From: a virus
DNA: 48,117 nucleotides
Virus record (IMG/VR): IMGVR_UViG_3300048589_001596
Span: 1 to 48,117 of that record
Reading direction: 5' to 3' (one strand)
Below, piece by piece: positions 20,280-46,706 of the stretch (position 1 is its first letter; every line of letters starts with the position of its first letter). Both the position numbers and the translations under genes were made by a program. The notes under the pieces were generated by a model. It saw nothing but the letters and a program-made list of their open reading frames with translations, ran no database searches and was not told the origin of the DNA.

Positions 20280-20485
20280 AGACCTATGCCGAGCAACTGG
20301 CCGATGTCCAACGCGCGATCGAAGCAGTTGAAACCAACGGGGTCGAATACGAAATTGAAGTGAACGGGAACCGGCGCAGCATCAGGCGTGGAGACCTCGC
20401 CACCCTCTATAAGCGCGAAGCCTGGCTTAAGCAGATGATTCATCGCGAATGCGGGGGTGGTTATACCCCTGTGACTCCAATCTAA
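20276..20485 (+). CDS. Head-tail joining protein, lambda gpW-like
   Basis: 69 residues, ATG overlapping the large terminase stop (ATGA). The sequence (YAEQLADVQRAIEAVETNG, then RRGDLATLYKREAWL) matches the small gpW/gpFII-like connector that closes the filled head. The position between terminase and portal is exactly that in lambda. Confidence 0.85.
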   Translation: MKTYAEQLADVQRAIEAVETNGVEYEIEVNGNRRSIRRGDLATLYKREAWLKQMIHRECGGGYTPVTPI

Positions 20486-20496
20486 GGACCCATGGG

Positions 20497-22485: not shown

Positions 22486-23130
22486 TTATGATTTGCTTCT
22501 TCCTAAGATTTCTTTCGTTTGACAAAACGCGGCAGCAAAAGCAATTACACCATAATCATCAAGGTATCCCACACCGAAGTTAAAATCTGGAATCATGTCC
22601 ACAGGAGTGAGAAAGTATAAAAGCGCACCGCAGGCGACAGTTTTGAGAACCTGAGGGATTCCTTTTGTTCGCACAACATAGAGCAAAACATTGAAGTCCG
22701 AACCAAATCGAGGATGATTCTTCTGAAATGATTCAAAAACATGCGCAGATTTCTGAATGGTTGGGAGCGCGTCAGAGTAGGCGCCTATTTGCTGCAAAAG
22801 ATCGCGCAGAAATGCTTCCTCACCTTCACTTTGAGGGCCTGGATGAGCTGAACACAGTGACTTAATGGTTTGGCTGACCGATTCAAAAAATTTCGACTGC
22901 TCAATTTGAGGCTGTTCGCCTGTATTCACGCAAGGCAATAGACCCTTCATACGCAGAATACTGATTGCTTCTCGAACACCGCGCTCGTGAAGAGTTGAAA
23001 TCTCATCATCTTTGTTTGAGCGTTTCATCCATCGCCGATAGGTCATGTTTGATATGCCAATAAGCGGGGCTAGTTGTTCCGGTGACAACTGAGCTTCCGC
23101 TAAAATTCCCAAGGCATCAGAATACTTCAA
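22486..23130 (-). CDS. HTH-like domain fused to DUF1232 membrane domain
   Basis: About 214 residues from a TTG at 23130 (AGGT seven bases upstream); a GTG at 23160 is the alternative start. The N-terminus (AEAQLSPEQLAPLIGISNMT) looks like a helix-turn-helix. The C-terminal 60 residues match the DUF1232/YkvA domain, with GALLYFLTPVDMIPDF and YLDDYGVIAFA. DUF1232 usually stands alone or with transport genes; joining it to a DNA-binding-like module is unusual. A palindrome lies immediately upstream, consistent with self-regulation. Physiological role unknown. Confidence 0.65.
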   Translation of the reverse strand: MKYSDALGILAEAQLSPEQLAPLIGISNMTYRRWMKRSNKDDEISTLHERGVREAISILRMKGLLPCVNTGEQPQIEQSKFFESVSQTIKSLCSAHPGPQSEGEEAFLRDLLQQIGAYSDALPTIQKSAHVFESFQKNHPRFGSDFNVLLYVVRTKGIPQVLKTVACGALLYFLTPVDMIPDFNFGVGYLDDYGVIAFAAAFCQTKEILGRSKS

Positions 23131-23168
23131 TAAATTTACCTGCCTGCTGAGTCGAAACACTAATCTGA

Positions 23169-23184
23169 CTTAACAAATGTTAAG
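23169..23184. promoter_or_regulatory. Palindrome upstream of the HTH-DUF1232 gene
   Basis: CTTAAC, spacer AAAT, GTTAAG: perfect 6-bp arms, 9 to 39 bases before the two possible starts of the gene. It is a likely operator, perhaps for the gene's own HTH domain. Confidence 0.45.
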
Positions 23185-23631
23185 CCAGAGGGTATGATGC
23201 TGTCAACATTGGAGGTTGGCCCGATCAAGTCCAGTTCCTGGAAAAAGCGACTTTTCAAGAATGGCATGACAATGAAGGTCATTTCAAAATACATCGTCAA
23301 CATGAGTTCCATCAAATGTTCTGCCTGAGTAAATCACAAACGTCCTTCTCAAAGTCCCTTGAATCATTGTATAGCGTCTCTAATTGTAGGAAGTGATTTA
23401 TCGATGGCTCTGCCTTGCTACAAGATGTTTTTGCCGAGTTGGAGTGGGACAATTTCTGTTTGTTCCATCCTGGATAGCGTCTTTCGATGGCCTCCCGATA
23501 TTATATTGTCTTCTTCCCTTTATGCTAAGGCATTCGACTCGAACACGGCGGCATTTGATGTCGCAAGTGTCGACGTGTTCACTTGGCATTCGATTTGATG
23601 ATCATTAATTTTCCAATGGAGAAATCGATTC
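23185..23631. other. Intergenic region, no gene recognised
   Basis: About 450 bases between divergent genes. Several short ORFs exist on the plus strand (for example 23359-23598), but none has a good ribosome site or a recognisable product. A second plus frame from about 23220 to 23396 is open without a start codon and could be a decayed gene. Promoters for the CNNM gene should lie near its end. Confidence 0.35.
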
Positions 23632-24957
23632 ATGGACCCGTTTGGACTCCTCTTCGAACTCGCAATCATTGTTGGGTTAGCGTTATTTAACGGCGTTCTG
23701 TCAATGTCAGAGATGGCAATGGTTTCCGCTAGAAAAATTCGCTTACAGCAACTTGCTAACCAAGGCAGCTCAGGTGCAAAAACTGCTTTAAAGCTTTTGG
23801 AAGAGCCATCCAGATTTCTTGCGGCGATTCAAATTGGAATTACACTGATCGGAGTTTTTGCCGGCGCATTTGGTGGCGCAAATATGGCTGAACAGCTTGC
23901 CAAAGCTCTTTCTCAGGTGCCTACACTCGCACCTTATGCTGACGCCATTGGGCTAGGGTGTGTCGTCTTTCTCGTAACAATACTTTCGTTGATACTTGGC
24001 GAACTTGTCCCGAAAAGACTGGCATTGGGCCACGCGGAAGGACTTGCTGTCCTGATGTCTAAGCCGATCAGCTTGCTGGCCCTTGTGTCCAGGCCCGCAG
24101 TGAAATTCTTAAGTGGGGCAACTGAAGGAATTCTCAAAATTTTTCAGTATAAGCAACCTGAAGATGCACCAATAACGGATGACGAAGTGCGAATTCTGGT
24201 CGAGCAAGGGACCCAGGCTGGAGTATTCGAACGCGAAGAAGAAACGATCATAAAGAGAACTTTAAAGCTCAGTGATAGATCGGTTTCCGAAGTCATGACA
24301 CAACGCCTTCAACTTGTGAGTCTTGATATAACAGATCCTACCGAAGTGAACCTGGATCGTATCAGAAAATCAATGCACTCCTATTTTCCCGTCTATAAAG
24401 GCAGTATAGACCATATTGTTGGTGTTGTTTCCGTGAAGGCTCTATTTGCGGCAATCAGCCAGAATCAACCATTGGACCTCAAAGTAGCGATGCAGGAACC
24501 TTTGTTTGTTGCTGAAAGCATGCCTGCGCTCAAGCTTTTGGAAATGTTCAAAAAATCAGGTAAACACTTTGCTGTAGTGGTTGACGAATATGGAGGGCTA
24601 TGTGGAATCGTTACAGTTCTCGACCTACTTGAGTCAATTGTTGGAGACCTTCCACAAGAGCATAGAAAGGGCGCTGACGGGGCCGTGGTAAGATCTGACG
24701 GCTCATGGCTTGTTGATGGAATTATGTCGCTTGCGAAAGTTTCAGACATCATTCCGGAGATAGATGAGAAATTCTTCCCAGAGGATTACCAAACGCTTGG
24801 CGGTTTTATGATGGGCGAGCTGGGCCACATTCCACGAGCTGGCGAGAAAATGCTTTGGCAAGGATGGTGGTTTGAAGTCATGGATATGGATGGCCACCGA
24901 GTGGACAAAGTCCTAGTGACACCGACAAAAATTGCAGTCGAACCATCAGCAGGATAG
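23632..24957 (+). CDS. CNNM/CorC-family membrane protein (hemolysin-like, DUF21-CBS-CorC)
   Basis: 441 residues. Domains in order: a DUF21/CNNM membrane domain with four hydrophobic stretches (about residues 1-200, including ALFNGVLSMSEMAMVSARK and the LGELVPKRLAL signature), a pair of CBS domains (about 215-340, with SVSEVMTQR and VVDEYGGLCGIVT), and a C-terminal CorC_HlyC domain (about 355-435, ending in EVMDMDGHRVDKV). Bacterial members are linked to Mg/Co homeostasis; the name hemolysin is historic. GGAG precedes the start. It fits the metal-ion theme of the island. Confidence 0.9.
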   Translation: MDPFGLLFELAIIVGLALFNGVLSMSEMAMVSARKIRLQQLANQGSSGAKTALKLLEEPSRFLAAIQIGITLIGVFAGAFGGANMAEQLAKALSQVPTLAPYADAIGLGCVVFLVTILSLILGELVPKRLALGHAEGLAVLMSKPISLLALVSRPAVKFLSGATEGILKIFQYKQPEDAPITDDEVRILVEQGTQAGVFEREEETIIKRTLKLSDRSVSEVMTQRLQLVSLDITDPTEVNLDRIRKSMHSYFPVYKGSIDHIVGVVSVKALFAAISQNQPLDLKVAMQEPLFVAESMPALKLLEMFKKSGKHFAVVVDEYGGLCGIVTVLDLLESIVGDLPQEHRKGADGAVVRSDGSWLVDGIMSLAKVSDIIPEIDEKFFPEDYQTLGGFMMGELGHIPRAGEKMLWQGWWFEVMDMDGHRVDKVLVTPTKIAVEPSAG

Positions 24958-25005
24958 GCTGCTGCTGGATTTTTTCGAAGCTCATCCTTCGAAGTAAATT
25001 GGCAA

Positions 25006-25029
25006 GGGGTCTGCGCTTTGGCAGACCCC
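25006..25029. terminator. Hairpin between convergent genes
   Basis: GGGGTCTGC (25006-25014), loop GCTTTG, GCAGACCCC (25021-25029). It lies between the CNNM gene and the leftward lipoprotein gene. It lacks a clean T-run, but the strong stem and convergent context support a shared terminator. A second small stem (TTCGAAG/CTTCGAA, 24974-24993) precedes it. Confidence 0.55.
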
Positions 25030-25061
25030 ACTTACAGAAGCATTGATGGTTTGCTGCTTTA

Positions 25062-25385
25062 CTAGGGCTGTATTTTCTTGGCAGCATCATTGCTGTCCAA
25101 GTCAAAATCAGAGTTTTTCACGACTATGAATTTCCTTTCTCCTAAACTTGACTTAACGACTCCCTCTCCGAGTGGCTCGTCTTTGCAATGAGACTTCTTG
25201 TTATGAACGTGGCAGTGTTCCCAGAAAAAAAGAATTCTATCTCCTTCCTTGATGCCTTCCTCGTTAAGTGAAACCACCACTTCTCTTCCAGATTTAATTT
25301 CCGAAATAGTCTTTGGGGAGCTGTGGCTGCATCCTGTGAATAGGCTGATCATGATTCCGGAGAAAATAGAGACTGATCTGAACAT
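25062..25385 (-). CDS. Small lipoprotein of the efflux region
   Basis: About 107 residues from the ATG at 25385, eight bases after GGAAGG. Residues 1-18 form a signal peptide ending in the lipobox LFTGC, so the mature protein is lipid-anchored in the envelope. A short mature part contains HCHVHNKKSHC, a His/Cys cluster that could bind metal. It is the last gene of the leftward efflux run, 43 bases after the TolC-like gene. No known family; a metal-binding accessory is plausible. Confidence 0.6.
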   Translation of the reverse strand: MFRSVSIFSGIMISLFTGCSHSSPKTISEIKSGREVVVSLNEEGIKEGDRILFFWEHCHVHNKKSHCKDEPLGEGVVKSSLGERKFIVVKNSDFDLDSNDAAKKIQP

Positions 25386-25427
25386 TGCCATACCCTTCCT
25401 GTTGATGAATAGCTGGTTGTTATCAAG

Positions 25428-26681
25428 TTAATTCAGAGTCAAACTGGAAATGCCGACCTCAGCCAAATAGTACTCAAAAAGAAGCGTGATATTCTCGATT
25501 TCGGTGTTGTAGAGAGTACGACTTGCCTCCAGAACATCAGGCCCATTTTTAACCCCACGCTCATATTCAATGCTTGTTTGGCTCAAGTATTTTTTAGCTT
25601 TCTGTAGCTGTGCTTCGGAATCGTGAATGAGTTCATGCAAGACAGTCATGTCATGAAGGTATTCTTCATAGGCTACTTCAACCTGCTGTTCGCTTTGTTG
25701 CTTCTGAAGTTCGTAGGCAGAGGCCTCAAGACGTTTTGCGGATGCCTCATTCTGCAGCGAGAGGTTGTCACCAATAGGAATGCTTAGCCGTACGCCGGTC
25801 GCAAAGTCTCTTCTTGGCAATGAGCCTGGCACGTCCTTATCGGCAGCAAGGTATTCTTCATAGCTGGCGAACAGATTGACTTCCGGACTCCATTTTGACG
25901 ACATTGATTGGGCAATTGCTTGAGCTTGATCGGCCTGCAAAGAAAGTTTGCGAACCTCAGGATGAACAGCTGCTGAAAACTTGAAATTTCCCTCTCCAGG
26001 TTCTGGCGGATGAGAAAATGATCTTTTGAGTATGATTTCGGAATCTTCTTTCAGACCAAGAAGGACGCGAAGTTTGTTCATAAGCTCATGCTCTTCCTTG
26101 TCGAGTTTTCTCTTTTCTCGTTTTAAAGAAGATTGATGAAGCTCAAACTCCAAAAGGTCAGTGTTGGTAGTCAATCCGGCTTTGAATTTGACTCGCGATG
26201 AGTTTTTCTTTTGCTCTGCGACCTTCACAGCTTCGGCCCAAGCACGTTTGAATTCTCGAATGGAAGCGAGCTTTACATAGAGTTCTCTTGCGACACTCAA
26301 TTGGTTTCGAAGAACCAATTGAGTGTCTACCATTCTGATCGCGGTTTCTTTTTCCTGAACGGCATCCTTAAGGGCATCACGGCCGCCTCGATAGAGGTTC
26401 ATGCTTCCTTCGACCTTCAGAAAAGGAGCATTATCTCCATTGCCGTTAAGTTCTCTGACTCCCCTCAACCCGGATTCAAAATCCAGCCTAGGATACTTTG
26501 CTCGGTCCTGAAACCCTTGTCTGGAAGATGATGCCTCCGCGAGAAACTCTGCTGCCTTGACGTCTCTACTGCTTTTTTTAATAAGCGTAGGGAGATCATC
26601 GTATTTGAGGACAACAAGTTCTCGTGCAGCGAGCTTTGCTGGGAGGATAGCCACTAGGAGGAATGATGCCCATGCCTTCAT
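25428..26681 (-). CDS. TolC-family outer-membrane efflux protein
   Basis: 417 residues with a signal peptide (MKAWASFLLVAILPAKLAA) and AAGGA before the ATG. The body is a duplicated helical outer-membrane efflux domain, with the typical mid-chain break (PEVRKLSLQADQAQAIAQ) and a beta-prone segment FASYEEYLAADKD. It would form the trimeric exit duct for the RND pump encoded upstream. A perfect 15-bp inverted repeat lies within its coding sequence (26292-26327). Confidence 0.85.
   Translation of the reverse strand: MKAWASFLLVAILPAKLAARELVVLKYDDLPTLIKKSSRDVKAAEFLAEASSSRQGFQDRAKYPRLDFESGLRGVRELNGNGDNAPFLKVEGSMNLYRGGRDALKDAVQEKETAIRMVDTQLVLRNQLSVARELYVKLASIREFKRAWAEAVKVAEQKKNSSRVKFKAGLTTNTDLLEFELHQSSLKREKRKLDKEEHELMNKLRVLLGLKEDSEIILKRSFSHPPEPGEGNFKFSAAVHPEVRKLSLQADQAQAIAQSMSSKWSPEVNLFASYEEYLAADKDVPGSLPRRDFATGVRLSIPIGDNLSLQNEASAKRLEASAYELQKQQSEQQVEVAYEEYLHDMTVLHELIHDSEAQLQKAKKYLSQTSIEYERGVKNGPDVLEASRTLYNTEIENITLLFEYYLAEVGISSLTLN
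26292..26327. repeat. Perfect 15-bp inverted repeat inside the TolC-like gene
   Basis: GACACTCAATTGGTT (26292-26306), loop TCGAAG, then the exact reverse complement (26313-26327). It encodes part of VDTQLVLRNQLSV. Such a long perfect stem inside a gene is not expected by chance and could affect mRNA stability or be a scar of rearrangement. Confidence 0.75.
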
Positions 26682-26702
26682 TGAAAGATCCTTGGTTACA
26701 GA

Positions 26703-27155
26703 TTAGTCGAGATTGTCGAATGCAGTTAAAAGTTCCTTGTCCTTATCTTTGAAGATAAAGTCGAGGTTGAACGGCTTGCCGATGACTTCTGGCATCTGAC
26801 CGGAGAAGGCTTTGCCGTCAAACGTGACTTCAAAGTCCTTGGACTGCATTTTGCCCTTCTTTTGTGTTGCCATTGTGACTTTGCCTTTTTTATCCCAGGT
26901 GCTGCCATCCACGGGTTTCATTGCAGAATCGTAAAGATAAACCTGTACTTTTCCGTCGGGTGATCGTACCAGCTCAGCTTTGTAGTGGAGTTCTGCTTTG
27001 GCTCCCAACAAAGCGTATTTCTTCTCAACAACAGCTGACACAAGTCCACCAAATTTTCCGGTGTCAGAAATTTTGGGGCCATGACCTTCATCGTGGGCGA
27101 AAGATGGGATGCTGCTTGCGAGACAGGCTACAACAAGAAATGCTCTCAATTTCAT
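26703..27155 (-). CDS. Periplasmic metal-efflux accessory protein
   Basis: 150 residues with signal peptide (MKLRAFLVVACLASSIPSFA); the mature N-terminus starts HDEGHG, a likely metal-binding His/Asp/Glu cluster. The rest is beta-rich with many Lys. The ATG overlaps the RND pump stop (ATGA), and AAGGAG precedes it, so both are made together. Its place between pump and TolC resembles that of CusF-like metallochaperones or a minimal adaptor, but sequence alone does not assign it. Confidence 0.65.
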   Translation of the reverse strand: MKLRAFLVVACLASSIPSFAHDEGHGPKISDTGKFGGLVSAVVEKKYALLGAKAELHYKAELVRSPDGKVQVYLYDSAMKPVDGSTWDKKGKVTMATQKKGKMQSKDFEVTFDGKAFSGQMPEVIGKPFNLDFIFKDKDKELLTAFDNLD

Positions 27156-30100
27156 ACAAGTTCTCCTTTGTTCGCGTGAAAGCGAAGATATTGCTCTGAA
27201 GCTTTTTTACCGAACAGGTAAAAGGCTGTCGGAGTTACGATCAGATCGAGGAAAGTGGAGGACACAAGTCCACCTACGATGACAACGGCTACGGGGTGCA
27301 GAATCTCCTTGCCTGGCTCTCCGGCTGCCATAAGCAGGGGAATTAAAGCAAGTGCAGCTGTGGATGCTGTCATCAGAACGGGGACGAGCCTTTCAAGGGT
27401 TCCTCTTAAAATCATTTCTTTGCTAAACGTTTCACCCTCTTCCTGCATGAGATGGAGGTAGTGACTGACCATCAGGATGCCGTTTCTCGAGGCGATCCCA
27501 CATAGGGTGATAAAGGCTATAAGGGTGGCGACTGAAAGTACTCGATCCGTCATATAAATAGCCACAATGCTTCCGATGAGGGCAAGGGGAACGTTCAGCA
27601 TGACCTGAAAGCTCAGGACCCATGATCGGAAGTGGAGATAAAGTACAGCAAATATTCCCAACATTGAAAGAAGACCCAGCACGGCGATTCTTTTGGAAGC
27701 CTGCTGTTGGCTTTCAAACTGACCTCCCAGCTTGATAAAATAACCTGCTGGTAGTTTGAGGCCATTCGCCAACTTTTCCTGAATTTCAAGAACGGTCGTT
27801 CCCAGGTCTCTTCCCTGGGTATTGGCAGACACTACAATCCGTCGCTGCATGTCCTCACGATTGATCATATTCGGTCCACTGCCTTGATAGACCTGAGCCA
27901 CGTCGCTGAGTCTGACTCCCTGCCCACTGGGCAGCACCTTGAGTAGAGTCGAGCCAATGGTTTCCGGGGTGGATCGCGAGTCGTCATCAAGTCGCATGAA
28001 TATGTCGTGGATTCTTTGACCTTCTATAAACTGCCCCGCAGTTTCACCATTCAGGGCAATTTCAAGGTCTTCTGCAAGTGCACCGGATTTAATTCCAAAC
28101 TTTCCAGCCTCCTCCCTATCCACTGCGATTTTCAACTGTGGAATAAGGACCAGAGGCTCGACTTGGAGATCAACGATACCGGGAATGGCTTCAAGTAGAC
28201 CATAAGCTTCGCCTCCAAGCCGCCTCAACTCGCTGAGTTCCGGCCCAAATATTTTAACGGCTATTTGAGCGCGGACGCCGGAGAGAAGATGGTCCAGACG
28301 ATGACCGATAGGTTGGCCGAGGTTCACATAAACGTCACCCGTCGCTTCGATTTTTTCACGGATTTCTTGAAGGACCACAGGCCGCGAACGTCCCTCTTGC
28401 TTGAAATCGACATCGATTTCGTGCCAATGAACGCCTTCCGCATGTTCATCCATTTCCGCCCGTCCTGTGCGCCTCACCGTCGAGACAACCTCAGGGACCG
28501 AAAGAATGGCCTCTTCAATTTTGATCCCAAGCTTGTCGGATGCAGCAAGGGATATTCCGGGTGCACCGGCAACGCCGATTGTAGCTGTGCCTTCATTGAA
28601 ACTTGGTAGAAAATTCCGGCCCATTTTGGGGAGAAGACTCAAAGCAAAGATCAAAAGACCTAGCGACAAGCCAAACACCAGCCAAGGCTTGGGCATCGTA
28701 AAGAGCACGACCCGACGAGCACCTTGCTTGAGCATCCGAACGAAAAATCCATCTTCTGCGTGGGCAATAGCTTTCGACTGAGGCAGGAAGTAGGAGCACA
28801 AAACCGGCGTAATTGTCAGAGAAATGACCAACGATGCAAGAATGGAAATGATGTAGGCAATCCCCAGCGGGACAAACAATCGACCTTCAATCCCTCCCAG
28901 GGCAAAGAGCGGAAGAAAAACCAGACAGACGATAACGGTTGAGATTACGATGGAATTCCTGACCTCGGATGAAGCCGCATAAATAACCCGGAGAGGGGGC
29001 TGGGGGTTAGGGGAAAGCCTATTCTCCCTTAGCCTTCGAAAGACGTTTTCCACGTCGACGATGGCATCGTCCACAAGCTCGCCGATGGCAACAGCCAAAC
29101 CGCCTAAAGTCATGGTGTTGACACCTAGACCAACCAGATGGAACACGATGGCAGTCATAAGCATCGAAACAGGAATGGCGACAAGGGTAATTGCAGTAGT
29201 ACGGACATTGAGAAGGAACAGGAAAAGGATGATAGCCACCATAATGATGCCGTCTCGAAGGGCTTCCTTCACATTATCGATAGCTGTTTCGATGAAGTGT
29301 GCCTGACGGAAAAGGTTCTTTTCCAGTTTCATTCCAGCTGGAATAGTCGGCGTCATCTCATCCAATTTTTTATCGATTGCCTTGGTTAGATCGATGGTGC
29401 TGGCATTCGGCTGCTTTTGAATCGTAAGTATGACCGAATGTTTCCCATTGATGCTGCCTTCCCCCCGCTTCTGCTTGGGACCGAGCTTGACCTCTGCGAC
29501 ATCCCTGACAAAAACGGGTTGCCCAAGATGCATACCAACTGCTGAATTTCTGATGTCATCCAGTGAGCCTACCCGTCCGAGAGGCCTGATAAGGTATTCT
29601 TTCTCGCCAATATCGAGGAAGCCGCCTGTGGTGTTTTCACTGATTTGGCGAATTGACTCTTTAAACTCTTCAAGAGATATGCCCCGCCTTTGCAGAGCCT
29701 GGCTGGAAACAAGTATTTGATACTGTTTGACCTGACCACCCATAACTACGACCTGGCTGATACCTGGAATAGTCATGAGCTGAGGGCGCAGGGTCCAGTC
29801 AGCATAGGAGCGCATGTCCATGGGTGACATGGTTTTGTCTGTCGCCGTGAGCCCGACAAATTGAATTTCACCCATAATGGATGTGACAGGGCCCATGACC
29901 GGCACGATACCGGGAGGAAGTCTTCCTTGGAGGAGTTGAAGCCTCTCCGCAATCAGCTGGCGGTTCTGGAAGACCTCAGTCCCCCAGTCAAACTCCACGT
30001 ATGAAATGGAAATGCCGATTCCACTGGAGGAGCGGACCCGGAGTACACCCGGGGCCCCATTCAAAACCGACTCGATGGGGACTGTTACGAGAGATTCAAC

Positions 30101-30280
30101 CTCTTCAGGGGCCAGACCATGCGCCTCGGCAAGAACCGACACCGTTGGCCGGTTCAGGTTGGGCAGGACATCAACCGGCAGTCTGCCGGCAACGATAAAC
30201 CCGTAGGTGCAGATAGCCAGGAGCAGCCCAAGAATCGTCAAACGATGATTCAGGGAATAACGAATAATAGCATTGAGCAT
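27152..30280 (-). CDS. Heavy-metal RND efflux pump, CusA/CzcA family
   Basis: 1042 residues from the ATG at 30280 (GGAG six bases upstream; a start at 30310 is less likely). It has the RND layout: a first membrane helix (TILGLLLAICTYGFIVAGRL), large periplasmic loops, a six-helix block around residues 330-530 and a second at 860-1020. The helix-4 signature AVAIGELVDDAIVDVEN, with its acidic proton-relay residues, marks the heavy-metal (HME) branch. Substrate (Cu/Ag against Zn/Co/Cd) cannot be fixed by eye. It pumps metal ions to the TolC-type duct. No adaptor (CusB-like) gene accompanies it. Confidence 0.9.
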   Translation of the reverse strand: MLNAIIRYSLNHRLTILGLLLAICTYGFIVAGRLPVDVLPNLNRPTVSVLAEAHGLAPEEVESLVTVPIESVLNGAPGVLRVRSSSGIGISISYVEFDWGTEVFQNRQLIAERLQLLQGRLPPGIVPVMGPVTSIMGEIQFVGLTATDKTMSPMDMRSYADWTLRPQLMTIPGISQVVVMGGQVKQYQILVSSQALQRRGISLEEFKESIRQISENTTGGFLDIGEKEYLIRPLGRVGSLDDIRNSAVGMHLGQPVFVRDVAEVKLGPKQKRGEGSINGKHSVILTIQKQPNASTIDLTKAIDKKLDEMTPTIPAGMKLEKNLFRQAHFIETAIDNVKEALRDGIIMVAIILFLFLLNVRTTAITLVAIPVSMLMTAIVFHLVGLGVNTMTLGGLAVAIGELVDDAIVDVENVFRRLRENRLSPNPQPPLRVIYAASSEVRNSIVISTVIVCLVFLPLFALGGIEGRLFVPLGIAYIISILASLVISLTITPVLCSYFLPQSKAIAHAEDGFFVRMLKQGARRVVLFTMPKPWLVFGLSLGLLIFALSLLPKMGRNFLPSFNEGTATIGVAGAPGISLAASDKLGIKIEEAILSVPEVVSTVRRTGRAEMDEHAEGVHWHEIDVDFKQEGRSRPVVLQEIREKIEATGDVYVNLGQPIGHRLDHLLSGVRAQIAVKIFGPELSELRRLGGEAYGLLEAIPGIVDLQVEPLVLIPQLKIAVDREEAGKFGIKSGALAEDLEIALNGETAGQFIEGQRIHDIFMRLDDDSRSTPETIGSTLLKVLPSGQGVRLSDVAQVYQGSGPNMINREDMQRRIVVSANTQGRDLGTTVLEIQEKLANGLKLPAGYFIKLGGQFESQQQASKRIAVLGLLSMLGIFAVLYLHFRSWVLSFQVMLNVPLALIGSIVAIYMTDRVLSVATLIAFITLCGIASRNGILMVSHYLHLMQEEGETFSKEMILRGTLERLVPVLMTASTAALALIPLLMAAGEPGKEILHPVAVVIVGGLVSSTFLDLIVTPTAFYLFGKKASEQYLRFHANKGELV

Positions 30281-30382
30281 CAACTTCTCCGAAAGTCTGG
30301 GAAGCAGCAAATAGCTTGCGCACGGGCATTTCGTCCGCTATCGCAGGTGGTTAATTTTCGCTTGAATTATACTGTTGCCGCT

Positions 30383-30790
30383 TTAAGCAATAGGAGGCCG
30401 TAAGAGGCTGCCGGAGAAAAGCTCGGAGATCGCTATATTCACTTCAAAAACTGGAGGGTCCAGGAATTTAAAAGCAGGCAAATTCATCAAAGATACACGC
30501 TGACTGACCCCGGGATTGGAGAATAGTCCCCAAATTTCCATATGATGACTATGAACGGGTTGATTCGGAGCATGCTGGTGACTGAGATCACTGTTCTCTT
30601 TTAAGGAGAGGCTGACCTCATCAGATTCGTGATCAATCGAATTATCATGACTGTGGTCACCATCTTCATTGTGGTCATCATGATGAGCGTGATCCTGATG
30701 CACAACATGTAGTACCGTTTTCACATAAGTTAATATGTGAAACGGCAATACAAGCAGCGCAGTGAAGATGTAGGCAAGTACCGTTTTCAT
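30383..30790 (-). CDS. His-rich membrane-anchored protein of the efflux operon
   Basis: 135 residues. A hydrophobic N-terminus (residues 2-28) serves as signal or anchor. It is followed by a striking His/Asp cluster (HQDHAHHDDHNEDGDHSHD, about residues 31-49) and a second His group (HQHAPNQPVHSHH). Such proteins often accompany metal efflux pumps and may buffer or sense ions in the periplasm. It is the first gene of the leftward efflux run, about 100 bases before the pump. Confidence 0.7.
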   Translation of the reverse strand: MKTVLAYIFTALLVLPFHILTYVKTVLHVVHQDHAHHDDHNEDGDHSHDNSIDHESDEVSLSLKENSDLSHQHAPNQPVHSHHMEIWGLFSNPGVSQRVSLMNLPAFKFLDPPVFEVNIAISELFSGSLLRPPIA

Positions 30791-30955
30791 ATTTCGACCA
30801 ACAGTTGACGACGCTATAAGGATAATAGCTTCTGAGACTGAGCGCTACAAGTCAAATCAACATAGAAAGTCTTCCGACCTTCAAGTCCTGATTCATGCAC
30901 TGGAATAAATACTTATGTCATCTTGGTATTTTGCAAGCCAACTTTTTGGGAAAGA

Positions 30956-31312
30956 ATGATGAGCGTTTTTTGGGTAGCAAAAATTCTGGTCTCTGCTTCG
31001 ATCATTGCTCTTGCGTCCGAGCTAGCTAAAAAATCTTCTTTCGTCGCAGGAATAACGCTGGCCTTGCCATTGACATCCATTCTTGCGCTAATTTGGGTGA
31101 ATTTTGAGACTGGCGATAAGGACAAGCTCGCCTCACTTGCCTGGAATGTTTTTTGGCTAGTTCCCCCATCTCTAGCCTTTTTTCCAGTCTTTGCAACCCT
31201 GGTCAGCCGGAACTTTTCTTTTTTGTTGTCGTTTCTGATCGCTGCAGTGCTTACTGGAATCACTTATATTCTTTACTCCAAAGTCCTTGGTCTTTTCGGG
31301 ATTCACGTTTAA
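30956..31312 (+). CDS. DUF3147-family membrane protein
   Basis: About 118 residues from one of two adjacent ATGs (30956/30959), preceded by GGGA. Four hydrophobic spans are visible. Signature stretches include ALASELAKKSSFVAGITLAL, LPLTSILALIW and the ETGD motif, as in DUF3147 proteins. Function of the family is unknown to me. It runs opposite to the efflux operon, sharing its upstream region. Confidence 0.75.
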   Translation: MMSVFWVAKILVSASIIALASELAKKSSFVAGITLALPLTSILALIWVNFETGDKDKLASLAWNVFWLVPPSLAFFPVFATLVSRNFSFLLSFLIAAVLTGITYILYSKVLGLFGIHV

Positions 31313-36619: not shown

Positions 36620-37449
36620 CGACCGCTCCGAAAATTGAAGAAGAACTGAATTTTGAAGCCATCTTCGACGAGAAAATCAACCGCTTCACACAAAGTTATC
36701 AGACGCAGTTTCCTTCATTCAAAAGGCCTGCACCGGTTGACCCTATCTTTCGTGCCCTTTCTGAGCTGGCAATGTCGGAGCTTATGATTAGGGCTAGAAT
36801 AAACGCTGCGGGCATGGCTCAGCTTCTCCGATACTCGGAAGATCTGAATTTCCTTTTTTTCGGCATGAGACGTGATGGCGAATCACTCGAAGCGTTCCGG
36901 GAAAGAATGAGGCTCAATCTCCATAAGGCATCACCCGCAGGGCCGCTCGAAATGTACCGAAGCCTGGCTCTTGCTTCGGCCAATGAAGGTGCAAGGACCC
37001 CTGACGAGTTTTCGGTGCTGGATGCATATGCTGAGACCGTCGATGACAAGGTTGTGGTTCACCTTCAGCCAAACATAAAAATTGAACCGGATATGGCCAT
37101 CATCTTGAAAAAGGTGGTCGACTTCATTGGCCAGGATCATATCAAGCCGGCATTTGATTTATTCGATGTTGTGGCTGCCGAGTCGAGGATCGTCAATGTC
37201 CAGGCAAGAGCCAAACTTGCGCCGGGAAAGGGTCAGGCATTCCTCAACGACTTAAAGGAGGATTTTGCCAAAAAAGTCTGGGAGCGATCGAGGCTGGGCC
37301 TCAATCTTCCTCTTTCATGGATTTACTCACAGCTCCATGTCGAAGGCATCTCATCCATATCAATCTTAACGCCAGTCGATGATCTGGAAGCAAAGAAAAA
37401 TGAATTCATTGTCCTTAACACCATTGTTCTGACACCGGTTACCGCTTGA
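36616..37449 (+). CDS. J: Baseplate J-like protein
   Basis: 277 residues, TTG start overlapping the W stop. Family traits are seen: AMSELMIRARINAAGMAQLL near residue 50, LEAFRERMRLNLHKASPAGP near residue 96, and HLQPNIKIEPD further on. P2 J forms the baseplate wedge edge. The stop overlaps the TTG of the next gene. Confidence 0.87.
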   Translation: MTTAPKIEEELNFEAIFDEKINRFTQSYQTQFPSFKRPAPVDPIFRALSELAMSELMIRARINAAGMAQLLRYSEDLNFLFFGMRRDGESLEAFRERMRLNLHKASPAGPLEMYRSLALASANEGARTPDEFSVLDAYAETVDDKVVVHLQPNIKIEPDMAIILKKVVDFIGQDHIKPAFDLFDVVAAESRIVNVQARAKLAPGKGQAFLNDLKEDFAKKVWERSRLGLNLPLSWIYSQLHVEGISSISILTPVDDLEAKKNEFIVLNTIVLTPVTA

Positions 37450-37847
37450 TAGACATCCACTACAGAAAGTTTATTCCAGCCTATTCGCCTGAGGTATCCA
37501 TTCCAATTCGCGACGGGAAAAATTCCAGGTTTCACGAAGCTTTGCTTTGGGAGTTTGCTCTCGGTGAACTTGAACAATATATCGTTGACGTGGAATTAAT
37601 ATTTCCCGACATCATAAAATTTATGAAGTATCGCGGCACTCTTCACTCGATGAAGCTGGCGCTTTCCTGGGTAGGATTCTCAAATGCAAAAATAATTCGT
37701 CTTACCCGGAAAACCTATGAAGTGGATCCAGGCAAGTCATTCAATACCCTCCAGACCAAAGCCATCCAGAGCGCCTGCAGGCAGTCATCTCCTGCCATCA
37801 GCACTCTTAAGCGTATATTTCACAATGATTTTTCAGTGAGTTTTTGA
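37446..37847 (+). CDS. I: Tail protein I-like baseplate component
   Basis: 133 residues, TTG start overlapping the J stop. The middle (FMKYRGTLHSMKLALSWVGF) corresponds to the P2 I motif of a KGT-I-x-x-I-(R/K) helix and glycine. It is shorter than P2 I (about 176). In P2 the next genes are H and G (fibre and chaperone); here the sheath gene follows at once, so the fibre genes are missing from this place. Confidence 0.65.
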   Translation: MIDIHYRKFIPAYSPEVSIPIRDGKNSRFHEALLWEFALGELEQYIVDVELIFPDIIKFMKYRGTLHSMKLALSWVGFSNAKIIRLTRKTYEVDPGKSFNTLQTKAIQSACRQSSPAISTLKRIFHNDFSVSF

Positions 37848-38426
37848 TTGTCCGATCCAGATTATTTGAACGGAATACGAGTTGTTAAAGGGGGAGATGA
37901 GGTTCGCATCATCCTCACCCCTAACCAGGCAGTGGTGGGGGTTGTTGGTACAGCACCCAAGGCGAGCGACGTTCTTCTGCCAGCAGAGACGCCGGTCGTA
38001 TTTTTTAAAAAGAAGGATGCGCTTGATGCGATCCTGCCTGACCCCAAGCAAGCGACGAATGAAGAGGAAAAGGGTACTCTCCACGCGTCGGTTGAAGCGA
38101 TCTTCAACCAGCGTACCCGGACGGTTATTGTTGTTCGTTCCAAATCGGAATCGACTGATAACCTGCTCAAGGCAATTGAAAAGCTTTTGGAAGCTGAGGC
38201 TTTAACCAACTATAAACCAAAAATTCTTTGTGCTCCTGGGCATACTGCACAAATCCCGACTGACGCCCCGACGCCAACTCCCGTCCCAACACCAGCTCCG
38301 ACGCCGACCCCAACTCCTGAAAACGATCCGGTACCAACTCCTGAAAACGATCCGGTACCAACTCCGCTGCGCAGCGCCCGCAATGCCGGTATGCCATTGA
38401 ATATGAAAGCAAAAGTGAATGCCTGA
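37848..38426 (+). CDS. FI: Contractile tail sheath, N-terminal part (split FI)
   Basis: 192 residues, TTG start directly after the I stop. Residues 1-130 match the P2 FI sheath N-terminus (LNGIRVVKGGDEVR, VVGVVGTAPKA, PKILCAPGHT). The chain then enters a Pro/Thr-rich stretch (about residues 138-176, including a twofold TPENDPVP repeat) and ends at TGA 38424. The remaining sheath continues in the next ORF in the +1 frame with an 8-nt overlap. Sheaths are normally one chain of about 390 residues or more. Confidence 0.8.
   Translation: MSDPDYLNGIRVVKGGDEVRIILTPNQAVVGVVGTAPKASDVLLPAETPVVFFKKKDALDAILPDPKQATNEEEKGTLHASVEAIFNQRTRTVIVVRSKSESTDNLLKAIEKLLEAEALTNYKPKILCAPGHTAQIPTDAPTPTPVPTPAPTPTPTPENDPVPTPENDPVPTPLRSARNAGMPLNMKAKVNA
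38311..38358 (+). repeat. 24-bp tandem repeat in the sheath linker
   Basis: Two identical 24-base units (38311-38334 and 38335-38358) encode TPENDPVP twice. Being a multiple of three, copy-number changes would alter linker length without shifting the frame. Confidence 0.9.
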
Positions 38427-39162
38427 AGTAAACGCCGACCCAATCGCAGGAAAACTGGTTTCCGTAGCAAAGCGCCTCAATGCCATCGCAATTGCAGACG
38501 CTCCGGACTCGAAAGAGCAGGACTATCGAAATGCGAACGGCAGTGAACGTCTTTACATCATTAATCCCAAAGCGAAGCAAGCGTCAGATAAAACCTCCCG
38601 CTTCGTCCCAGCAAGCGCTCATGCAGCGGGTGTTTTCGGACGTATCAATTTTTGGGAATCTCCTTCAAACCAGGAGATCGAAGGGATTATTGGAACTTCC
38701 CGTACAATTTCTTTTGCTCTCGATGATCCAGAATCTGAAGCTCAAAAGCTGAATGCAATCCAGGTTGCAACCATCGTGCGCCTTAATGGTTTTAGATTGT
38801 GGGGTATTCGCGGAAGCGGAATCCAGACAGATCTCAAGACAAACCAGATTCAAAAGGTCAGGATTTCTGATGCCATCAAAGAGGCGTTGATATCGTCCCA
38901 CCTTTATGCGGTCGCGCGTAATTTAACACGGACATATTTCGAAACGGTTGTTGCAAGCGTGAACAAATATCTTGGCGATTTGCAAACTACTGGAGCAATT
39001 GCAGGTGGCACCTGTTACGCCAAGGCGGAAGCGAATACTCCCCAAAATCTCTTTGATGGAAAAGCCTGGTTTGTGTACGAGTTCACTCCATCGCCTGTGT
39101 CGGAAACACTGACTTTCGAGGAACAAATCACTGACAAATATCTTGCCAATCTCATCGCTTAA
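38419..39162 (+). CDS. FI: Contractile tail sheath, C-terminal part (split FI)
   Basis: 247 residues, ATG inside the end of the previous ORF (ATGCCTGA). It begins where the P2 sheath continues (DPIAGKLVSVAKRLNAIAI) and contains FVPASAHAAGVFGRINFWES, SPSNQEIEGIIGTS, VRLNGFRLWGIRG and the closing TLTFEEQITDKYLANL. The whole C-terminal sheath, including the inner-tube contact and polymerisation strands, is therefore present. Translation may restart at the overlap or a +1 shift may join both parts. Confidence 0.85.
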   Translation: MPEVNADPIAGKLVSVAKRLNAIAIADAPDSKEQDYRNANGSERLYIINPKAKQASDKTSRFVPASAHAAGVFGRINFWESPSNQEIEGIIGTSRTISFALDDPESEAQKLNAIQVATIVRLNGFRLWGIRGSGIQTDLKTNQIQKVRISDAIKEALISSHLYAVARNLTRTYFETVVASVNKYLGDLQTTGAIAGGTCYAKAEANTPQNLFDGKAWFVYEFTPSPVSETLTFEEQITDKYLANLIA

Positions 39163-39173
39163 GGTTCCATTTT

Positions 39174-39686
39174 TTGCCACTTCCCAAGTTTTTAAAGAAT
39201 TTTAATGTCCAGATTAACGGATTTGATTATAAGCTACGCGCCGAAGAAATCACTCTCCCGAAGATTAAAATCAAAACAGAAGAGTTTCAGGCTTCGACCA
39301 TGCATGGACCGGTGGAGGTAGGCGTCTCGCTGGAGAAGCTTGAGTCCACCATCAAGCTCCTGGAAATTCCGTCAGAAATCCTGCTTGCAACGGGATTTTC
39401 GGTCGGTGGAAACGTCACAACGCTCGTTACAGGCGCACGCCAGCGGCAGGGGTCGGAAGCTGAGCCCATGACCGCAATCATGCAGGGGTGGATCAAAGGG
39501 CTCGACTTCGGCACATGGAAGGCAGGGGATGTCAAAGCCGCAAACCTCACGATTGAGATGTCTGTTTATCGATACTCCTTCAAACTTGAAGATGTTCCGC
39601 TTATCAATATCGATTTGGAAAACGGGATTCAATTCATATCGGGCGTTGACTATGGTGATTCTGTTCGCAAAGCACTGAGAGTGTAA
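39174..39686 (+). CDS. FII: Major tail tube protein, P2 FII-like
   Basis: 170 residues, TTG start with AAGG upstream. MPLPKFLKNFNVQINGFDY and the following ITLPKIKIKTEEFQA match the tail-tube family, as do MHGPVEVGVSLEKLE and INIDLENGIQFISGVD near the end. It forms the inner tube inside the sheath. The stop overlaps the start of E by one base. Confidence 0.9.
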   Translation: MPLPKFLKNFNVQINGFDYKLRAEEITLPKIKIKTEEFQASTMHGPVEVGVSLEKLESTIKLLEIPSEILLATGFSVGGNVTTLVTGARQRQGSEAEPMTAIMQGWIKGLDFGTWKAGDVKAANLTIEMSVYRYSFKLEDVPLINIDLENGIQFISGVDYGDSVRKALRV

Positions 39687-39985: not shown

Positions 39986-40131
39986 GGCTTCTTCATAAAG
40001 AATATGGATTTTCTGCGAGAGAGATTCTGTCGATGAGCGAGGATGATTGCCTATATTGGTTGTCATCTCTCGACCAATCAGGATCTGCATCCGCTTCTTC
40101 TGAAGACGACGTCTGGGTAAACGACGAGTGA
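39982..40131 (+). CDS. Tail assembly protein E' (frameshift extension)
   Basis: The -1 frame gives (from a possible GTG at 39982) VRLLHKEYGFSAREILSMSE and an acidic tail ending VWVNDE. The LLHKEYGFSAREILSMS part resembles P2-type E' segments (REYGW-x-P-x-E-(I/V)-L). It is most likely made only as the E-E' fusion, running from 39686 through the slip site to 40131. The stop overlaps the GTG start of the tape-measure gene. Confidence 0.65.
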   Translation: MRLLHKEYGFSAREILSMSEDDCLYWLSSLDQSGSASASSEDDVWVNDE

Positions 40132-43100
40132 ATTCCAAAAAACAGGTAATGATTGAGATCGCGGCGGGCTTTCAAGGCTCGTTCGATTCTGTCTTCGCGT
40201 CAGCCGGTGAACGAATTGGAAACCTTAAGAAAAAACTTTCCGAGCTTGATCTTGCGTCGAGAAGTGTTTCCAGCCTGAAAGAACTCCAGACTGCGACAGA
40301 GCAGTTCAAGTCCAAGATTGAGGACGCTCAAAAAGTTATTCCGGGACTCGAGGATTCCCTGACAGCTGCCGCTCAGACCCAGGAACTGCAGAAGAGAAAA
40401 ACTGCGGAACTCAGGACTGAAGTTGAAAAGCATCTTGGTGTCTTGAAAGATGCCAAAGCGAAAGAGGCTGCACTGAAGGATGAAGTCAGGCGCCTTTCAG
40501 CAGCCAAAGCGGAGCAAAAGACTCGATTCAAGGAAGCCAAAGCGGCAGTCAAGACGCTGGGTGACGCTTTTGAGCAATCGAAGGCGGCCTACTGGAATCA
40601 TGTGGAAGCCACAAAGCAGGCTGTACTCGCATCCAAGCTCAATTCAGAGCAGATGGCTGCGGAATCTGCCAGGTCCAGCAATCTTAAGATGGAGTTGAAC
40701 AAGAGCCTGCAGGCATACCTAACTGCCAAGGAAAAGCTTCCCGAATACAGAGCTGCCGTTGAAAGAACCACCACCGCTCTCATCGAACAAAAAGTTCTCG
40801 TTGCCAATGTTACGAGCGGAATCAAATCTCTAAGTCAGTCCTATGCCTCTTCCAAAACAGCGCTGGTGGGACATAAAGCAGCCGTGGAAGTGGACAATAA
40901 AGCTCTGGTTCAGAACGGTCAGCACGTCGACCAGCTCAAAGCCAAACTGGACAACGCTGAAGCTGAACTCAAAGAAAACACGGCAGCGTTCGAGAAGCAA
41001 ACGGCAGCTCTTAAAAGCTATGAGCATGCCTTGGAAGCGGCGGGTCATGAGGTCAAGGACCTTGCCAGACTTGAAAGCCATCTAGCCCAGGAAACCGCCA
41101 GGACTCAAAGGTCACATGATCTCGCAAGTCGCCGAAAGAAGGCCGCTGACCGGGGCAGTGAACTCCGGGGAGACATCGTTGGCGGTGCGTTTGAGTTGAC
41201 AGGCCTGGCATTAACTCTCGGAACGCCCATCAAAATTGCTGCTCAATTTGATCATGCGATGGCCAAAGTCGGGGCGCAGACAATGGCAACGGCAGAGGAA
41301 ATGAAGGTCCTTACCCAGGAAGCGAGGCGATTGGGTGACACCACTGTTTTCTCGTCTTCCGAGGCTGCTCTTGCGGAGTCCTATCTTGCCACGGCAGGCT
41401 TTGGTGTCCAGGACATCGTTGATTCTCTCAAAGGCGTGCTCGACCTGGCAGCCGCCGGGGAGGTTGGCCTGGGTGAAGCTGCAGAGATGGCGAGCAATAT
41501 GCTCGCAGGATTCAAACTGGATGCCACTGATATGGTACGGGTGGCCAACGTCATGACTGCGACATTTATTTCGACAAACACTAACCTGACCGGGTTGGCA
41601 GAAACCATGAAATATGTGGCACCCATAGCCAGCGCTCTTGGAGCCTCGATCGAGGAGGTGTCTGCGGCTTCTGGGCTTTTGGGAAATGTAGGTCTGCAAG
41701 GTTCCATGGCTGGCACGGCTCTGAGAGCCATGTATCAGCGCCTAGCATCACCTCCTGCCGCAGGCCGCGAGGCCTTGAAGCAATTGAATGTCACTCTTCG
41801 GGATGCGCACAAGAACCTCCTGCCTCTGCCGAATATTCTCGAGCAGCTCGACAAGCAGCTTGCGGGAAAAGGTACGGCAGAAAGGGCCAAGTACATCAAA
41901 GACATTTTCGGAGAGGAGGCTGCGGCAGGCGCCACTGAGCTGCTCGGCGCTGCAGGGTCTGGAAGTCTCAAGTTTGAGATCAAAAAGCTTGAGATGGCAC
42001 CGACCTTTCGCGCATCACTGAAGTATCTGCAGGACAGCATGACCTCGGCTGATTTGAAGGTTTTGGAAAATCGGTTTGGCATTGCATTCAAGGAAGGCAT
42101 GTCCAAATCAGCCAGGATCACAGAATTGTCAAAAGCTTTCACCGGGCTGAAAGGAAACGATTTTGAGAAGCGGTTTGCTGAGATTTTCCGTTTTACCCCG
42201 ACTCTTGACAAGATGGAATTGGATCTGGATACCAAGGCAGCTCAGGCGAAGCTCAAGGAACTAAAAATTGATCGTCGCGGCGGGGATAAAAAGGACAAAT
42301 CTTTCGATCAGTTGACGAAGGAAGTCGAAGTGGCTCTGGCTGCCCTTCCCGAACCGAAGCGACTGGAAGCCATGTCTGTGCTGTTCTCAAGATCCAAAAA
42401 TGAAATGCGAGCCTTGATGCAGGAGGCAGCGCAGGGCGAACCTAAATTCAGGCAGCTTACGGACGCTCTTGAGAAGACAAACTCAGCTCAAGAGATATCA
42501 GAGAGGCTGAATAATACTGCTATTGGCTCCTGGAAAAACCTACAGTCCTCGGTCGAAGCCGTTGCAATTTCTGCCGGAACAATCTTTTTACCAAAACTTG
42601 CTGAAATGATGAAGGTGCTGGCAGATGGCGCACTTAAGGTTTCTGGTATGGTGACGGAGCATGAAAACCTTGTGGCAGTAATCGGATACTTTGGTGCTGC
42701 TCTCGCTATGAGCAAAGCTGCCATGATCAGCTATAAGGCTGTACTATGGGCGCTCAGCGGTGCGCTTGAAATTATAACGTTCGCGCAAACAGCTCTAAAT
42801 GTTGTTATGAATATGAACCCGGTGGTTGCGACGATTACAGGAATGGTTCTCCTCATTACTGCAATGTGGGCGGCTATCAAAAACTGGGATTCAATCATGC
42901 AATGGCTAAAAGATGCAAAGAAATGGATTGCTCTTTTCTGGGAGGAAGATCTCAAACCAATCATGAAGTCCATTGGTGAGTTTCTTTCTTTTGGAGAAAC
43001 CCGTGACCTGAAGTTTTCCAGGAAAATAGAGCTTGAGGAAAGCGGGCAGGCATTCCAAAGCCGCATCCCTGAGATTTCTCAAAGAACGCTTCAGGACGAC

Positions 43101-43256
43101 AGAAATCGAAACCAGACTTTTAACCTGCAGCAAAAATTTGACATCTCTGTGCAGGGTGAAGATGCGCCCCAGCAGACGGTAGCCAGAATAAAAGATGAAA
43201 TGAAAACCGGATTCAAAAGTTCGGTGTTCAGCTATGCAGATCCCTTGAGTTTCTAA
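40128..43256 (+). CDS. T: Tape-measure protein, P2 gpT-like (TP901-type)
   Basis: 1042 residues, GTG start overlapping the E' stop. Residues about 15-340 form long coiled coils; 345-620 match the TP901-type tape-measure core (GGAFELTGLALTLGTPIKIA, FDHAMAKVGAQTMATAEEMK, GNVGLQGSMAGTALRAM). Residues about 860-940 contain hydrophobic segments (ALEIITFAQTALNVVMNMNP, VVATITGMVLLITAMWAAI) able to enter the host membrane. It sets tail length and probably helps DNA ejection. Confidence 0.92.
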   Translation: MNSKKQVMIEIAAGFQGSFDSVFASAGERIGNLKKKLSELDLASRSVSSLKELQTATEQFKSKIEDAQKVIPGLEDSLTAAAQTQELQKRKTAELRTEVEKHLGVLKDAKAKEAALKDEVRRLSAAKAEQKTRFKEAKAAVKTLGDAFEQSKAAYWNHVEATKQAVLASKLNSEQMAAESARSSNLKMELNKSLQAYLTAKEKLPEYRAAVERTTTALIEQKVLVANVTSGIKSLSQSYASSKTALVGHKAAVEVDNKALVQNGQHVDQLKAKLDNAEAELKENTAAFEKQTAALKSYEHALEAAGHEVKDLARLESHLAQETARTQRSHDLASRRKKAADRGSELRGDIVGGAFELTGLALTLGTPIKIAAQFDHAMAKVGAQTMATAEEMKVLTQEARRLGDTTVFSSSEAALAESYLATAGFGVQDIVDSLKGVLDLAAAGEVGLGEAAEMASNMLAGFKLDATDMVRVANVMTATFISTNTNLTGLAETMKYVAPIASALGASIEEVSAASGLLGNVGLQGSMAGTALRAMYQRLASPPAAGREALKQLNVTLRDAHKNLLPLPNILEQLDKQLAGKGTAERAKYIKDIFGEEAAAGATELLGAAGSGSLKFEIKKLEMAPTFRASLKYLQDSMTSADLKVLENRFGIAFKEGMSKSARITELSKAFTGLKGNDFEKRFAEIFRFTPTLDKMELDLDTKAAQAKLKELKIDRRGGDKKDKSFDQLTKEVEVALAALPEPKRLEAMSVLFSRSKNEMRALMQEAAQGEPKFRQLTDALEKTNSAQEISERLNNTAIGSWKNLQSSVEAVAISAGTIFLPKLAEMMKVLADGALKVSGMVTEHENLVAVIGYFGAALAMSKAAMISYKAVLWALSGALEIITFAQTALNVVMNMNPVVATITGMVLLITAMWAAIKNWDSIMQWLKDAKKWIALFWEEDLKPIMKSIGEFLSFGETRDLKFSRKIELEESGQAFQSRIPEISQRTLQDDRNRNQTFNLQQKFDISVQGEDAPQQTVARIKDEMKTGFKSSVFSYADPLSF

Positions 43257-44847: not shown

Positions 44848-44851
<4 letters not shown>
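43901..44851 (+). CDS. D: Baseplate hub protein, P2 gpD-like
   Basis: 316 residues. Start: ITADGKDLTDRIRQRLVSLT; then DDPPLDPPKEGTRIEMALGY and HEDQTESDSAFLARIADHY, the signature of gpD (late control protein D, hub homologue of T4 gp27). The C-terminus includes a LysM-like closing part. The stop overlaps the ATG of the collagen-like gene (ATGA), tying that unusual gene to the tail operon. Confidence 0.88.
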
Positions 44852-45945
<1,094 letters not shown>

Positions 45946-45965: not shown

Positions 45966-46706
45966 ATGAACAAACATTTTGGGTGGATTCCTGACTCGAA
46001 GGATGAGCGGGATCGAAAATACAGCTTAAAGCGTTCAGTGAATCTTCTCTCGAAAGTGGATTTTCGGGATCGTTTCCCTCGGGTTTGGAATCAGGAAACT
46101 CTCGGTTCATGCACCGCCCACGCAGTAGGTGCAGCCTGTCTTTACCAGGATATTTACGATGAAGACAGTTCTATCACGGTGCCGTCTTTGCTTTATATCT
46201 ACTATATGACCCGTGCTCTTGAAGGGTCTATAGGTATCGATGCCGGAGCAACGATCAGGAATACCGTGAAAGCCGTGGTGAAATTCGGTTATCCACTCGA
46301 CGACCTCTGGCCATATAAGATCAGCGATTTCAGCAAAAGACCGGACGAGAATGTCATCAGATCCGCTGCCCGTGAAAAGGTTTCCTACTATGAACGCATT
46401 GATAGGGATCTTTCCCATATCCAGGAAGTTCTGAGCCGCAGTGATCCGATTGTGTTGGGTTTCACTGTCTACGATTCCATTTACGGGCAGGATGTTGAAA
46501 AAACCGGAGTTATCCCAATTCCGAAGAAAAAAGAAAAAGTTCTTGGCGGCCATGCTGTGCTTGCTTGCGGATATGATAATGAACGACAAGCGCTCATCAT
46601 CAGGAACAGCTGGGGCGAGGACTGGGGTGAAAAAGGATACGGATACCTCCCCTTCGACTACATTTCCGATCCAAAACTGTCTGCTGATTTTTGGACTATA
46701 CATTAA
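45966..46706 (+). CDS. Papain-like (C1A) cysteine protease
   Basis: 246 residues with no signal peptide. The catalytic set is complete: Gln and Cys in NQETLGSCTAH (Cys about residue 49), His in GGHAVLACGYD (about 196) and Asn in IIRNSWGEDWG (about 214). There is no long propeptide; about 35 residues precede the domain, so it may be active at once or need another trigger. It lies 20 bases after the collagen-like gene and before a terminator, so it is probably a late gene. Possible roles: fibre processing, entry, lysis, or host-protein cleavage. Confidence 0.87.
   Translation: MNKHFGWIPDSKDERDRKYSLKRSVNLLSKVDFRDRFPRVWNQETLGSCTAHAVGAACLYQDIYDEDSSITVPSLLYIYYMTRALEGSIGIDAGATIRNTVKAVVKFGYPLDDLWPYKISDFSKRPDENVIRSAAREKVSYYERIDRDLSHIQEVLSRSDPIVLGFTVYDSIYGQDVEKTGVIPIPKKKEKVLGGHAVLACGYDNERQALIIRNSWGEDWGEKGYGYLPFDYISDPKLSADFWTIH

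Follow-up and report, generated by a model that had tools for sequence, protein, structure and literature searches.

A phage tail sheath gene divided into two maintained open reading frames at a loop of the sheath core

The tail sheath gene in the window (the whole stretch of DNA analysed, a 48,117-bp virus record) is present as two open reading frames, ORF1 (sheath-N) and ORF2 (sheath-C), with ORF2 in the +1 frame relative to ORF1 (Table 1). The TTG start of ORF1 lies directly 3' of the stop codon of the preceding gene, and an 8-nt overlap similar to that between ORF1 and ORF2, ATGGCTGA, is found in the relatives L005, L065, L066, L069 and L070. The phrog_23 (tail sheath) profile matched ORF1 over profile positions 22–172 (E = 9.5e-11) and ORF2 over positions 209–471 (E = 2.3e-62), and a Pfam scan placed both PF04984 and PF17482 on ORF2 above the cut-off. 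In comparisons with the R2-pyocin sheath (3j9q) using alignment profiles, ORF1 matched residues 3–141 (profile A4; E = 1.3e-8) and ORF2 matched residues 137–382 (E = 3e-62). Together the two ORFs span residues 3–382 of 386, and thus no conserved piece of the sheath is missing. We found no further sheath gene, either in the window or among the seven larger related records that we checked. These results bear out the original prediction that the sheath is encoded by two ORFs in different frames, overlapping by eight bases and lacking nothing conserved. The pair meets the test for the phage sheath family, a sequence match over the core and C-terminal domain, and ORF1 and ORF2 cover the whole sheath; it does not have the single-chain form that is usual in the family, although not formally defining, as there are two ORFs in the window and in 24 relatives. 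At the level of the ORFs, the pair is therefore a phage sheath family member that departs from the usual one-chain form. That it assembles into a contractile sheath and is made as separate chains is inferred, as there are no protein data.

Table 1 Features of the split sheath locus and adjoining tail genes (window coordinates)
Feature	Position	Strand	Description or basis
Upstream baseplate gene (gpI-like)	37446..37847	+	Weak PHROG tail-protein matches; directly upstream of sheath-N in relatives
Sheath ORF1 (sheath-N)	37848..38426	+	192 aa, TTG start; N-terminal arm and first part of sheath core
Disordered Pro/Thr/Asn-rich C-terminal tail of ORF1, 61 aa	38241..38423	+	Composition, length, faster evolution than core
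24-bp perfect in-frame tandem duplication, TPENDPVP coded twice	38313..38360	+	Sequence
ORF2 start/ORF1 stop overlap, exactly 8 nt	38419..38426	+	Sequence is ATGCCTGA
Sheath ORF2 (sheath-C)	38419..39162	+	247 aa, ATG start; remaining core and C-terminal arm
Tail tube protein (FII)	39174..39686	+	PF04985, E = 5.6e-34
Tape-measure-like gene	40128..43256	+	Homologues at same place in relatives; function inferred from position and length

The same break is present in other phages. Searching IMG/VR first with ORF2 and later with ORF1 as the query identified 24 further contigs with the sheath broken at the identical place; they come from nine metagenomes and one isolate-derived record (2667527381, L013). 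With the window included, these 25 contigs carry 18 distinct sheaths, with identities as low as 51% for ORF2 and about 32% for ORF1. Separate assemblies of identical or near-identical phages agree on the break (L002 with the window; L066, L067 and L068; and L070, L071 and L072). The metagenomes behind nearly all the split members have closely spaced numbers and probably belong to one sampling project. No member of the split clade turned up in the bacterial genome contigs that we searched or in 427 Bdellovibrionota/Oligoflexia-type genomes, which contain a few distant sheaths, the family-like ones being single ORFs. Finding the split in 24 related contigs satisfies one check that had been proposed for the original prediction, and the result that would have refuted it, close homologues that are all uninterrupted, was not obtained; every close homologue is split except L060, a relative that we interpret below as re-fused. 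The open-access literature that we searched contains no report of a split or two-protein phage sheath; this is weak evidence, as subscription papers were outside the scope. In the sections bearing on the question, a survey of sheath evolution mentions two-protein sheaths solely for the type VI secretion system (T6SS) (PMC9230969).

The break always falls after the strand ending in 'KP(K)I..APG', with an IAT variant in L013 and L053. Beyond it, the ORF1 tail is variable in the split sheaths, ranging from 27 to 62 aa and mostly rich in Pro, Thr, Asn, Ala and Ser; the equivalent segment in L060 was modelled with pLDDT < 50. The Pro/Thr-rich end with a tandem TPENDPVP repeat noticed at the outset proved to be a perfect 24-bp duplication, which was not found in the close relatives compared. 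The accompanying idea of a linker tolerant of a break is supported by the relatives, which share the break site and have variable tails. Other repeats at the same site are several copies of a GGNPS-type repeat in L012 and NPTDPV in L013. The tail seems to vary through repeat expansion.

A first objection is that the break is an error of sequencing or assembly, or lies in a prophage gene undergoing decay. In its favour, the data are metagenome contigs, and old prophages often carry broken phage genes. We considered selection on the two pieces. Because dS was saturated in all window pairs except window–L003 in ORF2 (2.06), omega was taken from unsaturated, closer pairs elsewhere in the clade. 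In these codon comparisons, omega was 0.06–0.22 for the ORF1 core and 0.016–0.084 for ORF2, and mostly 0.16–0.70 for the ORF1 tail. In a pseudogene, selection should be relaxed on one or both fragments, and this was not seen for the ORF1 core or ORF2. Strong purifying selection on both pieces indicates a maintained gene pair and not decay. The break is also common to 25 contigs, with agreement between separate assemblies, and homologous tail genes surround the sheath in conserved order. The recurrent break and low omega refute error or decay for the clade, and this explanation is almost completely ruled out.

The tape-measure-like gene, assigned by position and length, would indicate a complete tail module. 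A collagen-like (Gly-X-Y) tail gene with a signal-peptide-like N terminus follows a gpD-like gene (window 44848–45945), and a homologue lies between sheath-C and tube in several relatives (loci L040, L043, L046, L068 and L071). Near the integrase end is a peptidase-like gene (phrog_16701; window 45966–46706), with homologues in L044 and L049. Between the portal gene (20449–21942) and the S49 protease gene (from 32006) lies a block, 22486–31312, that is absent from the related phages examined; in relatives spanning this site, the portal adjoins the protease. The block contains regulator-like, TlyC/CorC-like, TolC-like and small periplasmic genes together with a CzcA-type RND efflux pump, names that rest on inspection and on relatives, not on a family scan. 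The CzcA efflux gene is 80% identical to that of an Oligoflexus MAG and 68–73% identical to those of Bdellovibrionales and related MAGs. This similarity suggests an Oligoflexia/Bdellovibrionota host for the window phage; such a host is possible and is pointed to, not proven.

A second objection is recoding: ORF1 and ORF2 may be joined by a ribosomal frameshift or by stop readthrough into a single sheath protein that has a long exposed linker, either fully or as a minor form; the original prediction had offered a +1 shift of this kind as its alternative. Two observations are in keeping with recoding: the single fused ORF of L060 shows that a fused protein is tolerated, and 6 of the 18 distinct sheaths have ORF1 and ORF2 in a common frame, separated by a single stop codon. 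By contrast, the phase of ORF2 relative to ORF1 is 0 in those 6/18, +1 in 9/18 and +2 in 3/18, so that no one type of recoding fits, and the distance between the ORFs ranges from an 8-nt overlap (−8) to a 9-nt gap (+9). Inspection of the junctions by eye revealed no shared slippery motif; the hallmarks of programmed frameshifting, a conserved phase and a slippery or pause signal, were not met. Moreover, ORF2 has kept a start codon and usually a strong Shine–Dalgarno sequence, which recoding would not need. Pairing with the anti-Shine–Dalgarno sequence upstream of ORF2 averaged −8.0 kcal/mol, compared with −3.6 kcal/mol at random positions (p = 1e-5), and was as strong as that upstream of ORF1 (mean −7.4 kcal/mol). 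The occurrence of all three phases, the ORF2 Shine–Dalgarno sequence and purifying selection exclude a single programmed frameshift, readthrough or decay as the common explanation. We therefore consider recoding unlikely and the +1 alternative unsupported, although a minor recoded product in the window cannot be excluded and remains possible.

Separate initiation of ORF2, probably coupled to termination of ORF1, is the simplest account and, as an inference, the one that we favour. In the window, L003, L004 and L005, the Shine–Dalgarno sequence before ORF2 is weak or absent, and ORF2 translation there would thus depend on coupling to ORF1; the ORF2 start codon in L003 and L004 is TTG. Three consecutive tail genes have seemingly non-standard starts in L013 (5408, 5932 and ~6748) and L053 (2450, 3001 and ~3816): sheath-N starts with ACG and sheath-C with ATA, both behind strong Shine–Dalgarno sequences, and the collagen-like gene starts with ATA. 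Several other L013 phage genes start with ATG.

In a maximum-likelihood tree of 41 sheaths, all split sheaths fell into one clade (support 100/100) with single-ORF sheaths outside it, the nearest being L014 and L015. The sheath is a single ORF in all the cultured phages that we compared (Wolbachia WO, ECO1230-10, FoX2 and AcaML1). Three members of the same family, FoX2 (a Xanthomonas phage), ECO1230-10 (an Escherichia phage) and L016, carry an extra ~75–90 aa at the exact split loop. These inserts look folded and lie within one continuous chain without a break, indicating that the loop tolerates additions.

L060 (IMGVR_UViG_3300048588_000877) is nested in the split clade but has one 472-aa sheath ORF with a long Lys/Glu/Pro-rich linker. 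It is sister to L065/L066/L069/L070 (support 100/98), and a tree grouping the split sheaths without it was rejected (AU p = 0.0004). Where L065 has GAGGTGATCAATGGCTGAAG, the L060 linker holds GAGGTGGTCAGGGACGCCAAGGCTGAGG (GAGGTGGTCA...AAGGCTGAGG). A relic of the ribosome site and start codon of ORF2 is thus preserved in the linker, now read as coding sequence. The shortest history, and probably the true one, has two events, one fission and one natural re-fusion in L060. A long-linker fused ancestor with repeated fissions would take about five events instead of two, and the relic start in L060 favours re-fusion; we rejected this history, although it is not fully excluded.

An AlphaFold2 model of L060 (pLDDT 82.6, pTM 0.80) has pLDDT mostly >90 in both halves and <50 in linker residues 156–202, which are disordered. 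Among PDB structures, the R2 pyocin sheath matched this model best (E = 2.9e-23). The model thus predicts, for this natural fusion only, that both halves fold into one sheath around a disordered linker. ORF1 modelled alone gave a pLDDT of 47; this poor prediction is in keeping with dependence on ORF2, but it came from a shallower alignment and is thus only weak evidence, not a clean test. The split sheath is like P2 gpFI and the R2-pyocin sheath in sequence, in the predicted fold of the combined halves and in its place between baseplate and tube genes; the compared members of that group are one chain, whereas the split clade has two ORFs with a disordered tail at the break.

A third possibility is that ORF2 alone forms the sheath, ORF1 having become an assembly factor or decoration. 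ORF2 does evolve more slowly than ORF1, and ORF1 has a free disordered tail. However, ORF1 retains the N-terminal arm and core strands, matching precisely that part of the pyocin sheath which ORF2 does not cover; the two parts fold together with confidence when modelled as the fused L060 protein; and the corresponding strands of TssBC are integral to its sheet and handshake (PMC5807055). An ORF2-only sheath is thus very unlikely.

In the TssB1C1 sheath of the T6SS, strands from both chains form a shared sheet, and the arms are on different chains (PMC5807055). The gene layout of the split sheath is like that of TssB/TssC (VipA/VipB), in which the small chain bears the N-terminal arm and the large chain the C-terminal arm (PMC5807055). 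We rejected ORF1 as a TssB member: a Pfam scan of ORF1 returned no hits at all, and thus none to TssB (PF05591), and hhalign with nine TssB sequences gave a probability of 0.1%. The likeness to the T6SS is therefore one of layout without a detectable sequence relation, and two chains on the phage side are inferred. Other differences are that the third core strand appears to follow the break in the T6SS but to precede it in the phage split, as inferred from the published strand order; that the N-terminal extension before the core is much longer in TssC, the large chain on which the T6SS has a ClpV-binding N-terminal helix, than in ORF2; and that the split-sheath genes, unlike TssB/TssC, are encoded in a phage tail module.

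We propose that fission of a one-chain sheath gene of the P2/R-pyocin type occurred in a surface loop lying between the 'KP(K)I..APG' strand and the next helix, where other phages insert a whole domain. The two cistrons, which lie next to or overlap each other and are probably coupled, would yield separate ORF1 and ORF2 proteins, and these would co-fold as a 1:1 non-covalent protomer. ORF1 would supply the N-terminal arm and first core strands, with the remaining core and the C-terminal arm coming from ORF2; the two arms, which link each subunit to its neighbours in the sheath mesh, would thereby be on different chains, as in TssB/TssC. The free C terminus of ORF1, a disordered tail that evolves fast, may project from the loop, its outward position being inferred. 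The descendant L060 would have rejoined the chains via its long linker, and both forms thus appear viable. The separate ORFs, their conservation, the selection on them and their phylogeny are shown, as is the modelled fold of the fused form. Gene fission at a surface loop leading to a two-chain protomer is very likely, whereas two-chain translation, stoichiometry, co-assembly and the outward tail are inferred without protein data. The main reading of the original prediction, a two-chain sheath broken at a tolerant surface linker, is in this sense strongly supported by the relatives. A bolder reading, which we consider likely, is that this lineage independently evolved a working two-chain contractile sheath, in parallel with TssB/TssC, through fission at a surface loop tolerant of insertions, and that the change was reversed in at least one descendant.

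Phage sheaths are regarded as repeats of one chain, with the two chains of the T6SS sheath seen as exceptional. A natural split clade with one re-fusion shows a route by which a two-chain sheath can arise, and its matched split and fused variants provide material for testing which links of the mesh carry the force of contraction. The break loop is a natural site for extra sequence on the sheath surface. If the two-chain reading is true, the covalent link at this loop would be dispensable for a sheath that transmits contraction force, and the terminus freed there would bear a variable tail.
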